From: Opitutaceae bacterium
Lineage (GTDB): Bacteria > Verrucomicrobiota > Verrucomicrobiia > Opitutales > Opitutaceae
DNA length: 61,263 nucleotides
Direction: 5' to 3'
NCBI GenBank assembly: GCA_024711005.1
Contig: JANJTQ010000342.1
Coordinates: 1-61,263, forward strand
Below, one piece after another: positions 49,025 to 54,341 of the stretch (the stretch's first letter is position 1; each line of letters opens with the position of its first letter). The translations under genes and the position numbers were made by a program. Under the pieces are notes generated by a model. That model did no database searches, was not told where the DNA came from, and saw nothing but the letters and a program-made list of their open reading frames with translations.

Positions 49025-49110
49025 AGCCCATGAAACACACGAAATGACACGAAAAGAAGAGACTGAATTTCCGGGGCTTTTATTTCGTGTCGCTTCGTGT
49101 GTTCAGTGGG
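49025..49110. repeat. TTCGTG repeats forming a long inverted repeat
   Basis: 49025-49056 has CATGAAACACACGAAATGAC followed by ACGAAAAG; 49079-49110 has TTATTTCGTGTCGCTTCGTG followed by TGTTCAGTGGG. The two arms are near-perfect reverse complements over about 28 bases. They fill the pdxJ-acpS gap and could fold into one long hairpin. Confidence 0.75.
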
Positions 49111-49120
49111 CCCTCCTCCG

Positions 49121-49531
49121 ATGAATATCGAACTTCCTCCCGGCGGCATTCTTCTCGGCCTTGGCTCCGACATCATCGACGTGGACCGCATTCGCGGCGT
49201 GTTGGAGCGTCAGGGCGAACGGTTTCTCGATCGTGTGTTCACCGATGAAGAGCGCGCCTATTGCTTCGGCATGAAGTATCCGCACAAACACCTCGCCGCG
49301 CGGTTTGCGGCCAAGGAGGCGGTTTCGAAGGCGTTCACCACAGGCATCGGCGCGGAACTCGGCTGGAAGTCCGTTTCGGTCTATCACGGTAGCCGCCACG
49401 AACCCTTGGTGCGCCTGGACGAAAAAGGCACCGCGCTGCTGAACCAAGTCGGCGGCACCAACGTGCTGCTCACACTCTCGCACACCGATAACGCAGCGAT
49501 GGCCGTTGCCGCTGTGGTGAAGGCGGTCTGA
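49121..49531 (+). CDS. acpS: Holo-[acyl-carrier-protein] synthase
   Basis: A 136-residue phosphopantetheinyl transferase that activates ACP with CoA. GLGSDIIDVDRIRGVLERQG (Mg-binding Asp) and HLAARFAAKEAVSKAF (catalytic Glu/Lys) are canonical. The ATG at 49121 is used; an earlier start would lie in the repeat arm. 9 bases separate it from the NAD(P)HX-repair gene. Confidence 0.97.
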   Translation: MNIELPPGGILLGLGSDIIDVDRIRGVLERQGERFLDRVFTDEERAYCFGMKYPHKHLAARFAAKEAVSKAFTTGIGAELGWKSVSVYHGSRHEPLVRLDEKGTALLNQVGGTNVLLTLSHTDNAAMAVAAVVKAV

Positions 49532-49540
49532 GTTTTACGC

Positions 49541-51007
49541 ATGAACGCCGCGCATCCACTTCTGACCTGCGCCGAGGCGAAAGAATTCGAGGCGTCTTGG
49601 TTCAAGGATGAGGAGGCGCGCGAATGGGCGGCCATGCAACAAGCCGGCCGGGCCGTGGCCGAAGCCGTGCTGCGTGATTTTGAGGAAATCGGGGGCTTTC
49701 CCTCCGCGGGTCGCGTGCTGGTGCTCGCGGGCAAGGGGCACAACGCCGGCGATGCGCTTATTGCCGCACGCCGCGTTCTTGAGCTGCACCCGCAGAGTCG
49801 CGTTGAAGTGTGCTTCGTCATGGGTGAACGCACGCTGCGTCCGCTCGCGCAACGTGCCTGGCGCGATCTCGCTTCTGTGGCGACGAGCGTGAGCGAGTTG
49901 GCCTCGTCGGGCTACGATCTCGTGCTCGACGGAATCTTCGGTTTTCAGTTCCGTCCACCGCTGAAGCCTGCGGTGGCCGCGTTGTTAACCGAGGTGAATG
50001 CGTTGCCCGTGCGTCTGCGCGCCGCCGTTGATCTGCCGAGCGGACTCGACGACCCCTCAGCGTTTCGGGCCGATTTCACTTACGCGACCGGCATCGCAAA
50101 AACGCCAATCCTCGCGCTTCCCAACGCGGGACGCCTTCGCTACTTGGATCTCGGCTTTTTCGACCAGCCTCCTCTCGATCCAGTTTGTCACTTATTAAGT
50201 GACAAACCGGATCGGGTCCTTTCGTCGACGATGCTCGATCCGCTCCGCGTTTTGCGACCGTCGCAGTCTGATAAGCGCACGTACGGACATCTCTTTGTGG
50301 TGGGAGGATCGCGCAATTATCCCGGGGCGATCTTGATGAGTGTGCTCGCCGCGTTGCGCAGTGGCGTTGGGTTGGTCACCGCCTTTGTCCCGGAGACCTT
50401 GGCACCGGCGTTCGCGGCGCGCGCGCCCGAAGCCATGTGGGTTGGCTGGCCGGAAACACCCGAAGGCGGACTCGCTCTCGAAGGCTCTCATTTGCTCCGG
50501 GAAAAGCTCTCCCGCGCCACCGCGTTGCTCATCGGGCCGGGAATCGGGCGCGAAGCGGAAACGATCGCATTGGTCACGGACATCGTCGCGCAATCCGCCG
50601 TGCCCTTGGTGATCGATGCGGACGCGTTGCAGCCGGGAATCGTCGCCGTCGGTAAAGCGCCGCGTATTCTTACGCCTCATGCCGGTGAGTTTGCGCGCAT
50701 CGAACACGCGATTACGCCGCAGACCGTGACGATCAAGAAAGGTCCGCTCACGAGCGTGCAGGCCGAAGGGGTGGCCTATCACAGTTTCTTCGGGGGTCCC
50801 GTGCTGGCCCGCGGCGGCAGTGGAGATCTATTGGCGGGACTCACCGCCGGGTTGCTCGCGCAGGTGCCGAATGACCCGTTGAGCGCCGCCGCATGCAGCG
50901 TGGTTTGGCACGGCATGGCCGCCGATGAGCTTGCGCGGACGCATGGCCAGGTTGCGGTCAACACGACTCAGCTCCTGAATTTTTTACCGATCGTTTTGCG
51001 GAAGTGA
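49541..51007 (+). CDS. nnr: Bifunctional NAD(P)HX epimerase/dehydratase
   Basis: A 488-residue metabolite-repair enzyme. The N-terminal NnrE/YjeF_N domain (residues about 1-210: LAGKGHNAGDALIAARRVLE) is followed by the NnrD/YjeF_C kinase-like domain (GHLFVVGGSRNYPGAILMS, GPGIGREAETIALVTDI, LTPHAGEFARIEHAI, ARGGSGDLLAGLTAGLLAQ). It restores hydrated NAD(P)H. The linker near residues 212-225 is encoded by a large palindrome that keeps the frame. Confidence 0.97.
   Translation: MNAAHPLLTCAEAKEFEASWFKDEEAREWAAMQQAGRAVAEAVLRDFEEIGGFPSAGRVLVLAGKGHNAGDALIAARRVLELHPQSRVEVCFVMGERTLRPLAQRAWRDLASVATSVSELASSGYDLVLDGIFGFQFRPPLKPAVAALLTEVNALPVRLRAAVDLPSGLDDPSAFRADFTYATGIAKTPILALPNAGRLRYLDLGFFDQPPLDPVCHLLSDKPDRVLSSTMLDPLRVLRPSQSDKRTYGHLFVVGGSRNYPGAILMSVLAALRSGVGLVTAFVPETLAPAFAARAPEAMWVGWPETPEGGLALEGSHLLREKLSRATALLIGPGIGREAETIALVTDIVAQSAVPLVIDADALQPGIVAVGKAPRILTPHAGEFARIEHAITPQTVTIKKGPLTSVQAEGVAYHSFFGGPVLARGGSGDLLAGLTAGLLAQVPNDPLSAAACSVVWHGMAADELARTHGQVAVNTTQLLNFLPIVLRK
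50176..50214. repeat. 39-base palindrome in the inter-domain linker of nnr
   Basis: Two stem blocks, CGATCC...GGATCG and GTTTGTCACTT...AAGTGACAAAC, pair around an ATT centre with one mismatch (17 of 18 pairs). Local AT content is much higher than in the rest of the gene. It encodes about 13 residues (around VCHLLSDKPD) exactly between the two enzyme domains. It looks like a small palindromic element inserted in frame. Confidence 0.75.
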
Positions 51008-51065: not shown

Positions 51066-53165
51066 ATGCTTTTTCTCAAACGTTGCTCTGGCTGGCTCAC
51101 GGTTGCGGTTTGTTTCGGTTCGCTGGCGGCCGCCTTGATGCCGACCGTCGCTCTTGCCGCTGTGGAGGCGGAGGCGTCAAGCGTCACGTCGACCGATGCA
51201 CGGAATTCCGTCGAACGCCTGCGCTGGCTTCGGGCGGAAATCTCCCGACACGACGAACTCTATTTCAAAAAAGCGGCTCCCGAGATCAGCGATGCCGAAT
51301 ACGACCGGCTCAAGCGGGAGATGCTGGCCTTGGAAAAAGCATTCCCCGACGAGCCCCGCGCGCCGACGGGCGCAACGACGTCGTTCGGCGACGATCGCAA
51401 CGGGCGTTTTTCGAATTACCGGCATCGCGAACCGATGCTCGGTCTGGAGAAGGCCTATTCGAGGGCGGAGCTGCGGGCGTTTCACTCGCGTCTGGAAGGC
51501 GCGTTGGGGCGGACGGATTTGATTTTCGTCGTTGAGCCGAAGTTCGACGGGATTGCCATCAGCGTGACCTACGAAGGCGGACGGTTGGTGCGCGCAGTCA
51601 CGCGCGGCAATGGGCAGGAAGGCGATGACGTGACCGCCAATGTGTCAACGATCGCGGAGCTCCCACGAGAGCTGCGAGCGTTGTCTTTGGAGGGTGTTCG
51701 TAATCCTATTCCGGATACGGTGGAACTGCGCGGGGAGGTTTACCTCGATTATGCGGAGTTTGACCGGATCAACAGGGAACGCATCGAGGCCGGTGACGAA
51801 CCGTTCGGGCATCCGCGTAATCTGGCCGCAGGCACGCTCAAACAGAAGGATCCGGATGACGTGGCGAAACGCGGGTTGAGGGTGGTGTTTTTTGGAATCG
51901 GTGCATGGCAGGGCGCGACGAAAGATCGTCCGGATTCACAACAGGCGTTGCACGCGCTGGTGCGTGCATGGGGATTGCCTGGAATCGGGGCATTCGAAAT
52001 GGCGGCGAATGCGGATGACGCATGGGCGGCGGTGGAGCGGCTCGGTGCACGGCGGACGGCGCTGGGGTTTCCGACGGATGGTGCGGTGGTGAAACTCGAC
52101 GCGTTTGCCGGGCAACGCCGGTTGGGAACGAGTGAAGACGCGCCGCGTTGGGCGATCGCCTATAAGTTTCAGCCTGAGCGAGTGACCACGCGGTTGCGTT
52201 CGATCACGTTACAGGTGGGCCGCACCGGCGTGATTACGCCGGTGGCCGAACTCGATCCGGTGAGGATCGGCGGCGCGTCCATCTCACGGGCAACGTTGCA
52301 CAACGCTGCGGAGATCGCGCGGCGTGACCTGCGCATCGGAGACTTCGTTTTTGTGGAGAAGGCCGGCGAGATCATTCCGGCAATCACGGGAGTGGATCTG
52401 AGCCGGCGTACGCCGGATGCGGCGCCCTTTGCGTTTCCGGTGGGATGTCCGTCGTGTGGCACGACTCTTCTGCGTGCGGAGGATGAAGCGGCGACGCGTT
52501 GCCCGAATGGGCGGTGTGTTGCGCAGGTTCGTCGGCGGATTGAGCATTTCGCCGCGCCGGCGGGTGTGGGTATCAACGGGCTGGGACCGGTGCAGATCGA
52601 AGCGCTGGTGAACGCGAACAAGGTTTCAAGCGTGACGGATCTGTATCGGTTGCGACGCGAAGATGCGGTTTCGGAGCGGATACTGACGGAGATTGAACGC
52701 AGCAAGCGGGCGGACTTGGGCCGGTTTATTTTTGGGCTGGGCATCCCTGGCATAGGACGGAAAACAGCCGAAGCGTTGGCGACTCGTCACGGGAGCCTGG
52801 CGATTCTGGCGAAGGCACGGGATGCAGAGTTGACCGATGCGACCCGCGGGCTGATGGCGGAATTGGTTGCGCTTGGGGTGAATCCGCAGGCCGGGGTGAA
52901 GATGACAAGGAGTGGGCCGGGGCCGCTCGCGGGGAAGACGGTCGTATTGACTGGTTCTCTGAAAGGTTGGTCTCGTGCGGAGGCCGCAAAACGCATCACA
53001 GCCGTCGGCGGGCGCACCACGACCAGCGTGAGCCGTCGAACCGATTGGGTCGTGGCGGGTGAAGGTGCCGGCGCGAAGTTGGACGAGGCGCGTGTGCTGG
53101 GCGTTCCGGTGATTGATGAGGCTGAGTTGCTGCGGCTGCTGCAAGAATCGCAGGCCGGTGAGTGA
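51066..53165 (+). CDS. ligA: NAD-dependent DNA ligase with an N-terminal signal peptide
   Basis: A 699-residue protein. Residues 1-31 look like a signal peptide: basic FLKR, hydrophobic core WLTVAVCFGSLAAAL, then PTVALA with an A-x-A site. A full LigA follows: the Ia domain (DELYFKKAAPEISDAEYDRL), adenylated Lys159 in VEPKFDGIAIS, OB fold, four-Cys zinc finger (GCPSCGTTLL; RCPNGRCVAQ), helix-hairpin-helix (GLGIPGIGRKTAEAL) and C-terminal BRCT (AGKTVVLTGSLKGWSRAEAA). Met25 at 51138 could start a cytoplasmic form. E. coli LigB also begins with a signal-like sequence. Confidence 0.92.
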   Translation: MLFLKRCSGWLTVAVCFGSLAAALMPTVALAAVEAEASSVTSTDARNSVERLRWLRAEISRHDELYFKKAAPEISDAEYDRLKREMLALEKAFPDEPRAPTGATTSFGDDRNGRFSNYRHREPMLGLEKAYSRAELRAFHSRLEGALGRTDLIFVVEPKFDGIAISVTYEGGRLVRAVTRGNGQEGDDVTANVSTIAELPRELRALSLEGVRNPIPDTVELRGEVYLDYAEFDRINRERIEAGDEPFGHPRNLAAGTLKQKDPDDVAKRGLRVVFFGIGAWQGATKDRPDSQQALHALVRAWGLPGIGAFEMAANADDAWAAVERLGARRTALGFPTDGAVVKLDAFAGQRRLGTSEDAPRWAIAYKFQPERVTTRLRSITLQVGRTGVITPVAELDPVRIGGASISRATLHNAAEIARRDLRIGDFVFVEKAGEIIPAITGVDLSRRTPDAAPFAFPVGCPSCGTTLLRAEDEAATRCPNGRCVAQVRRRIEHFAAPAGVGINGLGPVQIEALVNANKVSSVTDLYRLRREDAVSERILTEIERSKRADLGRFIFGLGIPGIGRKTAEALATRHGSLAILAKARDAELTDATRGLMAELVALGVNPQAGVKMTRSGPGPLAGKTVVLTGSLKGWSRAEAAKRITAVGGRTTTSVSRRTDWVVAGEGAGAKLDEARVLGVPVIDEAELLRLLQESQAGE

Positions 53166-53213: not shown

Positions 53214-54341
53214 ATGGACTCCCCGGAACTCACCGAACAGCAGGCTTTCTTGGTGCTAAATGCGCTGCCGAACATCGGTCCGATCACACTGAACCGACTG
53301 TTGGTCGAACTCGGTGACGATCCGCGCGCCGTGTTCACGGCCGGTGCCCGTCGCTTGGAGGAGGTGCGCGGTGTGGGGCCGGCCATCAGCGGAACCATCG
53401 CGCGTTGGCGTGAGTATTTTGACCTCCCGCGGGAGGAGGAGCGCATGGCGACGGCGGCGACGACGTTTATCACATCGCGTGATGCCGCGTATCCGAAGTT
53501 GCTGCGCGAAATCGACAGTCCTCCGATCGGGATGTATCGAAAAGGTAACTACGATTTTTCGCGGCCGAGCGTCGCGATTGTCGGCAGCCGGCGCACGACG
53601 CTCTATGGACAGAGCGTGGCGAAGAAGCTGGGCGCCGATCTGGCGCGCCTGGGTTTTTGCGTGGTGAGCGGGCTTGCACGCGGCATCGACACGGCGGCGC
53701 ATGAAGGAGCGTTGTCGGTGGGCGGAAAAACCGTCGCGGTGTTGGGCAACGGCATAGATATCATTTACCCGGCGGAGAACCTTGGACTGTATCGGCAGAT
53801 CGGGGAGACGGGTGCGATCCTCTCGGAGTTTCCCTTTACGCGTCGCGCCGACAAACAGTCCTTCGCGATGCGCAATCGGATTGTTGCGGGCATTTGCGAG
53901 GCGGTCGTGGTGGTGGAAAGCGACGTGAGCGGCGGTTCAATGATCACGGCGCGCTTTGCGGGAGAGCAGGGGAGGCTGATCTTTGCCGTGCCGGGGCGTA
54001 TCGACCAACCATCGAGCGCGGGCTGTCACCAACTTATCCGCGACGGGGCCACGTTGCTTACGAGCATTGACGATATTTTGAGCGAGTTGAACTACCTTGA
54101 TGGTCTGCGTCCGTCGCCGATTCCGGAGAAGACGGCCGGCGGCACCGCGCTGGCGGCATCGAATCTCACGCCGGAGGAACAACAGGTCTATGCCTGCTTT
54201 GCGGGCGGCGCGCTCGTGTCGATCGACCAGATTAGCGCGCAAACCAATCTGCCGACGTCGCAGCTGTCGGCCACGCTGATGATGCTGGAGCTGAAGCGGC
54301 TCATCGTAAAACGCGCCGACGGCACCTTTGAGGCGCGGTGA
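53214..54341 (+). CDS. dprA: DNA-processing protein DprA
   Basis: A 375-residue protein that loads RecA on incoming single-stranded DNA in natural transformation. An N-terminal helix-hairpin-helix region (LNALPNIGPITLNRLLVELG; VRGVGPAISGTIAR) precedes the Rossmann-like DprA core (VAIVGSRRTTLYGQSVAKKL, VSGLARGIDTAAHEGALSVG, VVVVESDVSGGSMITARFAG, AVPGRIDQPSSAGCHQLIRD) and a C-terminal winged helix (QISAQTNLPTSQLSATLMML). 48 bases after ligA. Confidence 0.97.
   Translation: MDSPELTEQQAFLVLNALPNIGPITLNRLLVELGDDPRAVFTAGARRLEEVRGVGPAISGTIARWREYFDLPREEERMATAATTFITSRDAAYPKLLREIDSPPIGMYRKGNYDFSRPSVAIVGSRRTTLYGQSVAKKLGADLARLGFCVVSGLARGIDTAAHEGALSVGGKTVAVLGNGIDIIYPAENLGLYRQIGETGAILSEFPFTRRADKQSFAMRNRIVAGICEAVVVVESDVSGGSMITARFAGEQGRLIFAVPGRIDQPSSAGCHQLIRDGATLLTSIDDILSELNYLDGLRPSPIPEKTAGGTALAASNLTPEEQQVYACFAGGALVSIDQISAQTNLPTSQLSATLMMLELKRLIVKRADGTFEAR

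Follow-up and report, generated by a model that had tools for sequence, protein, structure and literature searches.

A signal-bearing LigA paralogue, probably exported, in an Opitutaceae genome

The ligase gene and its locus

In the window, by which we mean the whole stretch of 61,263 nucleotides that was analysed (contig JANJTQ010000342.1 of an Opitutaceae bacterium), a gene for an NAD+-dependent DNA ligase lies between an nnr/yjeF-type gene and dprA (Table 1). That dprA is the next gene, as an earlier note on this DNA had stated, is supported by the match to TIGR00732.

Table 1. Features of the ligase locus, in positions of the window.
Feature	Position	Strand	Basis or remark
acpS-like gene, upstream, kept in the genus	49097..49531	+	name by eye
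nnr/yjeF-type NAD(P)H-hydrate dehydratase/epimerase gene, upstream, 58 bp gap	49541..51007	+	
Signal-bearing NAD+-dependent DNA ligase (exported-type LigA paralogue), ATG 51066 to stop 53165, 699 aa plus stop	51066..53165	+	Pfam, NCBIfam
Predicted signal peptide, residues 1-31, cut after 31 or 32	51066..51158	+	fixed rule
Domain Ia, NAD+-binding (Nlig-Ia), residues 49-96	51210..51353	+	Pfam
Adenylation domain, residues 114-371	51405..52178	+	Pfam
Catalytic Lys159	51540-51542	+	within the adenylation domain; alignment
OB fold, residues 374-450	52185..52415	+	Pfam
C4 zinc finger, residues 461-486	52446..52523	+	Pfam, alignment
Helix-hairpin-helix (HhH), residues 553-590	52722..52835	+	Pfam
BRCT domain, residues 618-691	52917..53138	+	Pfam
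dprA, downstream, starting 48 bp past the ligase stop	53214..54341	+	Pfam, NCBIfam TIGR00732

Pfam finds in the protein every domain of LigA and in the LigA order (Nlig-Ia, adenylation, OB, C4 zinc finger, HhH and BRCT), which bears out the earlier claim that the set is intact, zinc finger and BRCT included, and two LigA models of NCBIfam are matched above their cut-offs (NF005932, 641.7 bits against 369; TIGR00575, 610.2 bits against 444.45). When aligned with E. coli LigA, the protein keeps Y22, D32, Y35, D36, K115, D117, E173, R200, R277, D285, K290, K314 and the four zinc cysteines, positions which we take to be functional sites, and carries the substitutions H23 to F and R208 to K. By this alignment, the active site is retained, and homology to LigAs of solved structure is evident. 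The position of His23 is Phe in many of the putatively exported copies described below (as DELYF), and in the aligned canonical copies it is nearly always Tyr or His.

Ahead of domain Ia, the protein begins with MLFLKRCSGWLTVAVCFGSLAAALMPTVALA, with an A directly behind the cut. This stretch combines a basic n-region, a hydrophobic core (mean Kyte-Doolittle value 2.27) and a small-x-small cleavage site, a classical pattern that agrees with the textbook signal peptide described in the earlier note. It also passes a fixed, home-made signal rule (best cut after residue 32), which does not tell whether such a signal is cleaved or serves as an anchor.

Relatives, leaders and origin of the paralogue

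The same genome (G000, 96.6% complete) holds, on a separate contig, a second LigA of 682 aa (C219:15635-17680) without a hydrophobic N-terminus, and the window's gene is therefore an accessory copy. A search for such a gene had been proposed in the earlier note, along with a look at the N-termini of relatives. Neither of the outcomes named there as refuting turned up: the window's ligase is not the sole ligase gene, and a leader of the same type recurs in relatives, as described below. Other ligase genes were also seen in this genome. A third NAD+ ligase (L036, G000:C342:13404-15414) is broken and read in two overlapping frames; its closest counterparts among the sequences compared are LigAs of Myxococcota and Atribacterota (~46%), so its contig may be foreign or a contaminant. 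At C337:14687-15280 and C11:13803-14309 there are two ligase genes of the ATP type (PF01068), whose frames have 927 and 390 aa; the longer could be LigD-like.

At least one ligase match was present in 54 of the 56 genomes surveyed (36 of the family and 20 at order level). Canonical LigAs mostly begin with a Met ~113 residues before the KxDG motif and have nothing hydrophobic there, whereas the other copies have a hydrophobic leader. When any start codon could be chosen, in either group, the signal rule was passed by 22 of 23 exported-side frames and by 1 of 32 canonical LigA frames; this one passes by way of a TTG lying upstream, in an extended frame where the usual Met is present too. The two groups had already been defined, by leader and tree, when the rule was applied, so that the counts describe their contrast and are not a discovery of it. 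L052 fails the rule despite MTVLIAAIAIFAAVESRG, and two frames were left out of the count (L033 and L062, the latter with a hydrophobic N-terminus seen by eye). Among the N-termini read, at least 18 of the 36 genomes of the family have an exported-side copy, as does one (G055) of the 20 order-level genomes. The G055 locus (L054, G055:C24:5259-9996) is the sole order-level carrier seen outside the family, and its exported-type ligase has a comEC match ~1.7 kb away, on the other strand. In two genomes, G012 (93% complete) and G001 (77%), the signal-bearing copy was the only one found; it might serve replication there, gaps in the assemblies being likelier.

A search of 150 family genomes gave 30 loci, 21 of them new, several being near-copies. 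The rule was passed by 17 of these 21, and in the four that failed an ATG stands at the canonical position. Of the 17, seven likewise have some start codon near that position, and internal initiation is conceivable at those loci. Among 80 named loci, 78 were read and 8 were flagged, namely the Opitutaceae-type L077-L081, together with L112, L115 and L125, in which, by eye, an ordinary Met follows the hydrophobic stretch. The named carriers L077-L081 include Opitutaceae and Opitutus sp. MAGs, and the named records nest in the exported clade. Throughout this clade, the leaders keep their type and diverge in sequence, so that conservation of the N-terminus, suggested earlier as a check, holds in kind but not in sequence.

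In a tree of 53 rows, built with care and with eight LigAs from other phyla as its root, 26 of the 27 exported rows form one clade (100/99) inside the LigAs of the family. Two enclosing forks have support of 99/96 and 97/98, and the fork that lies between these has 86/90. L062 is outside the clade in this tree, and a single clade of all 27 exported rows is not rejected (p-AU 0.144). Because the clade nests within the family LigAs, the window's copy appears to have arisen by duplication of LigA and gain of an export signal. In a quick earlier tree that included E. coli LigB, the exported rows formed a grade on the side of LigB. The LigB branch is very long, shifts with sampling and pulls long exported rows, joining L071 in one tree and L054/L068 in another, and we therefore draw no conclusion on kinship with LigB.

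In the four pairs having both genes, dN of the exported copy is ~2.7-5 times that of LigA; for G000 and G004, the exported copy has dN 0.315 and dS 1.06, and LigA has dN 0.063 and dS 0.82. The NG86 dN/dS of five exported pairs is ~0.14-0.30, a rough value since dS is near or above 1, and as judged from these ratios the exported ligase is evolving fast yet under purifying selection. Within the genus, identity to the copies of the window's genome is 53-59% for the exported ligase, 65-75% for nnr (also variable), 79.5-90% for LigA and 80-94% for dprA, and between that genome and G004 it is 59% for the ligase, 90% for LigA and 94% for dprA. Replacement of the allele by a divergent ligase is not needed to account for these differences, dS being alike in the exported ligase and LigA (1.06 and 0.82) and mainly dN differing (0.31 and 0.06).

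The mature region of the exported copies has a mean pI of 7.66 (n=22) against 5.87 in canonical copies (n=32; p 0.0002, an optimistic value with related rows) and 6.1 cysteines against 7.0 (p 0.02, a contrast inflated by relatedness). The four zinc cysteines are the only ones in the mature region of the window's protein. A BRCT domain was matched in 12 of 24 aligned members, 10 ending before it and 2 being cut by contig ends; L066 is without the Y22/H23 part of domain Ia, and in L068 one zinc cysteine is replaced.

Neighbourhood, membrane fate and start site

The order acpS-nnr-ligase-dprA is found in six genomes of the genus (G000, G002, G004, G009, G010 and G012), and in G001 the locus is cut by a contig end. 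In G003, G005, G006 and G007, nnr is directly followed by dprA with no ligase, and in G008 dprA was not found. A different ORF lies between nnr and dprA in G011, where the search for a ligase remnant gave just a 12-residue match (E 0.89); this ORF (L165) is hydrophobic and resembles a membrane protein. Since members of the genus show nnr-dprA both with and without the ligase, the latter is gained or lost as a unit.

The earlier note had read the proximity of dprA as a hint at a link with incoming DNA. A dedicated competence factor acting with DprA on such DNA would be compatible with export, and is favoured by the same-strand nnr-ligase-dprA arrangement in the six genomes, the window's included, and by the presence of comEC in the window's genome; moreover, the authors of a study of the accessory ligase Lig E discuss its action on transforming DNA in the available part of their text (PMC10799422). 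However, in the roughly 5-kb flanks examined, adjacency of ligase and dprA was seen only in the window's genus, and outside it dprA was absent from those flanks and the neighbours varied, including phosphomethylpyrimidine kinase, polyphosphate kinase and GH43. No Pfam family recurred beside the ligase outside the genus among 20 flanking ORFs from 13 loci (9 without a family), these ORFs having been called mechanically and L039, L066, L079 and L080 lying outside the Pfam scan. One ORF cluster (c4, sigma-70-type in L040) flanks the ligase at three exported loci and at one canonical locus. In addition, comEC is present in 49 of the 56 genomes, with or without the ligase, and so offers no contrast, and the members of the genus that lack the ligase keep both nnr-dprA and comEC. 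DprA itself works in the cytoplasm, on single strands. The hint from dprA is thus a weak one; a competence role for the window's ligase is possible but not indicated, and a factor dedicated to work with DprA seems to us unlikely.

A second possibility is that the leader stays uncleaved and anchors the ligase in the membrane, either unreleased on the periplasmic face or on the cytoplasmic face. The blindness of the signal rule to this distinction leaves room for such an anchor, but a small-x-small site follows the core in 22 of the 23 frames, by the rule's terms, and we consider an anchored enzyme improbable. With regard to the route, a Tat signal was considered, and a single RRxFL stretch was noted (L041, by eye), which makes Sec likelier than Tat.

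Finally, the start site could have been misread, and translation from Met25 (the alternative offered in the earlier note) or from another internal start would then give a second cytoplasmic LigA. The window's frame does hold a TTG, an ATG (Met25) and a GTG inside or just past the signal, 133, 132 and 124 residues ahead of KxDG, respectively, but it has no start codon ~113 residues before this motif, where canonical LigAs mostly begin. No clear Shine-Dalgarno sequence precedes either ATG (51066 or Met25), which leaves ribosome binding neutral as evidence, and the signal stretch has a GC3 of 0.65 (the other frames have 0.60 and 0.57), a value from 31 codons, too few to inform. Among the 22 rule-passing frames, the span that begins 12 residues ahead of the predicted cut and ends at domain Ia contains some internal start (ATG, GTG or TTG) in 17 and none in 5 (L037, L038, L060, L066 and L068), so that the leader could not be skipped in those five; the span is ATG-free in 16 of the 22, the window's frame being among the six with an ATG. 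Because of these relatives, and despite the ATG in the window's own frame, translation from Met25 is judged unlikely, and with a hydrophobic leader recurring across the clade, a cytoplasmic product of a misread start is very improbable.

Known accessory ligases and the proposed function

The window's protein resembles LigA in its full set of domains, KxDG motif, zinc ligands and BRCT, and nests among the LigAs of its own family. It differs from LigA in its signal peptide, its coexistence with a normal LigA, its faster evolution, the F at H23 and the frequent absence of BRCT among its relatives; its predicted signal pattern sets it apart from the signal-less cytoplasmic replicative ligase. Its nearest known parallels are LigB and Lig E. 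LigB (yicF in E. coli, also in other Pseudomonadota) is likewise an accessory ligase of the NAD+ type with a signal-like N-terminus, but the window's protein reaches 158 bits against the LigB model, whose cut-off is 498, and E. coli LigB has 560 aa and is without three of the four zinc cysteines. E. coli LigB (L075) passes the signal rule, as do 11 of the 13 further LigBs read (L201-L214), the other two having hydrophobic N-termini by eye; this set comes from 200 genomes of the phylum to which a Proteus genome belongs, of which 14 are carriers, one frame not being found.

LigB of E. coli has been described as an accessory NAD+ ligase, and in the available text of that study of its function a word search gave no occurrence of signal, periplasm, export, localiz or secret (PMC5507437). 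A review of ligases, in the part available, names LigB only as an ATP-type class (PMC5052709), and one transcriptome table gives ligB, beside endA, as 3.6-fold up in a cpxR deletion mutant, an effect which may be indirect (PMC2731931). Lig E is described, in the available parts of two papers (PMC10799422; PMC4220977), as an exported ATP-dependent accessory ligase of Proteobacteria with a predicted periplasmic leader. The window's protein is like it in its accessory nature and its leader. Unlike the window's protein, Lig E is a minimal ATP-dependent enzyme of a separate family, and the ATP-ligase domain PF01068 is absent from the Pfam matches of the window's protein. In the same available texts, deletion of Lig E in gonococcus lowers biofilm formation (PMC10799422), and roles in extracellular DNA, biofilm and possibly transformation are discussed (PMC10799422; PMC4220977).

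The window's gene is a real, conserved and probably exported LigA paralogue, and the known kind to which it belongs is the accessory exported ligase. As an explanation of the locus, we consider it likely that this is an accessory NAD+-dependent ligase, a duplicate of the family LigA that an N-terminal signal peptide, probably of the Sec type, has retargeted. The exported ligase proposed in the earlier note is to that extent supported, by the signal peptides of the paralogue group and by the separate signal-less LigA, whereas the compartment is inferred, as are export itself, activity outside the cytoplasm, the supply of NAD+ there and the biological role. The pre-protein would cross the inner membrane, the signal being cut near residue 31-32, and the mature ligase would fold in the periplasm or be released. 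There, Lys159 would accept AMP from NAD+, and the enzyme would close nicks in double-stranded DNA, candidate substrates being DNA captured for uptake, environmental DNA and matrix DNA, while replication would be left to the cytoplasmic LigA.

DNA ligase is a textbook cytoplasmic enzyme, and among the matches listed from the open-licence literature there was no report of an exported NAD+ ligase in Verrucomicrobiota. Whether the family keeps, in the periplasm, a DNA-repair activity that relies on a complete LigA paralogue using NAD+ is, in our estimate, an even call. If it does, NAD+ would be reachable by enzymes outside the cytoplasm, nicked double-stranded DNA worth sealing would occur there, and the export of an NAD+ ligase would be a recurrent invention, like LigB in kind and Lig E in function. 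A clade of full-length LigAs with export signals also turns attention to the N-termini of LigB, and offers a tractable system in which to ask which DNA is joined outside the cytoplasm and from where the NAD+ is drawn.
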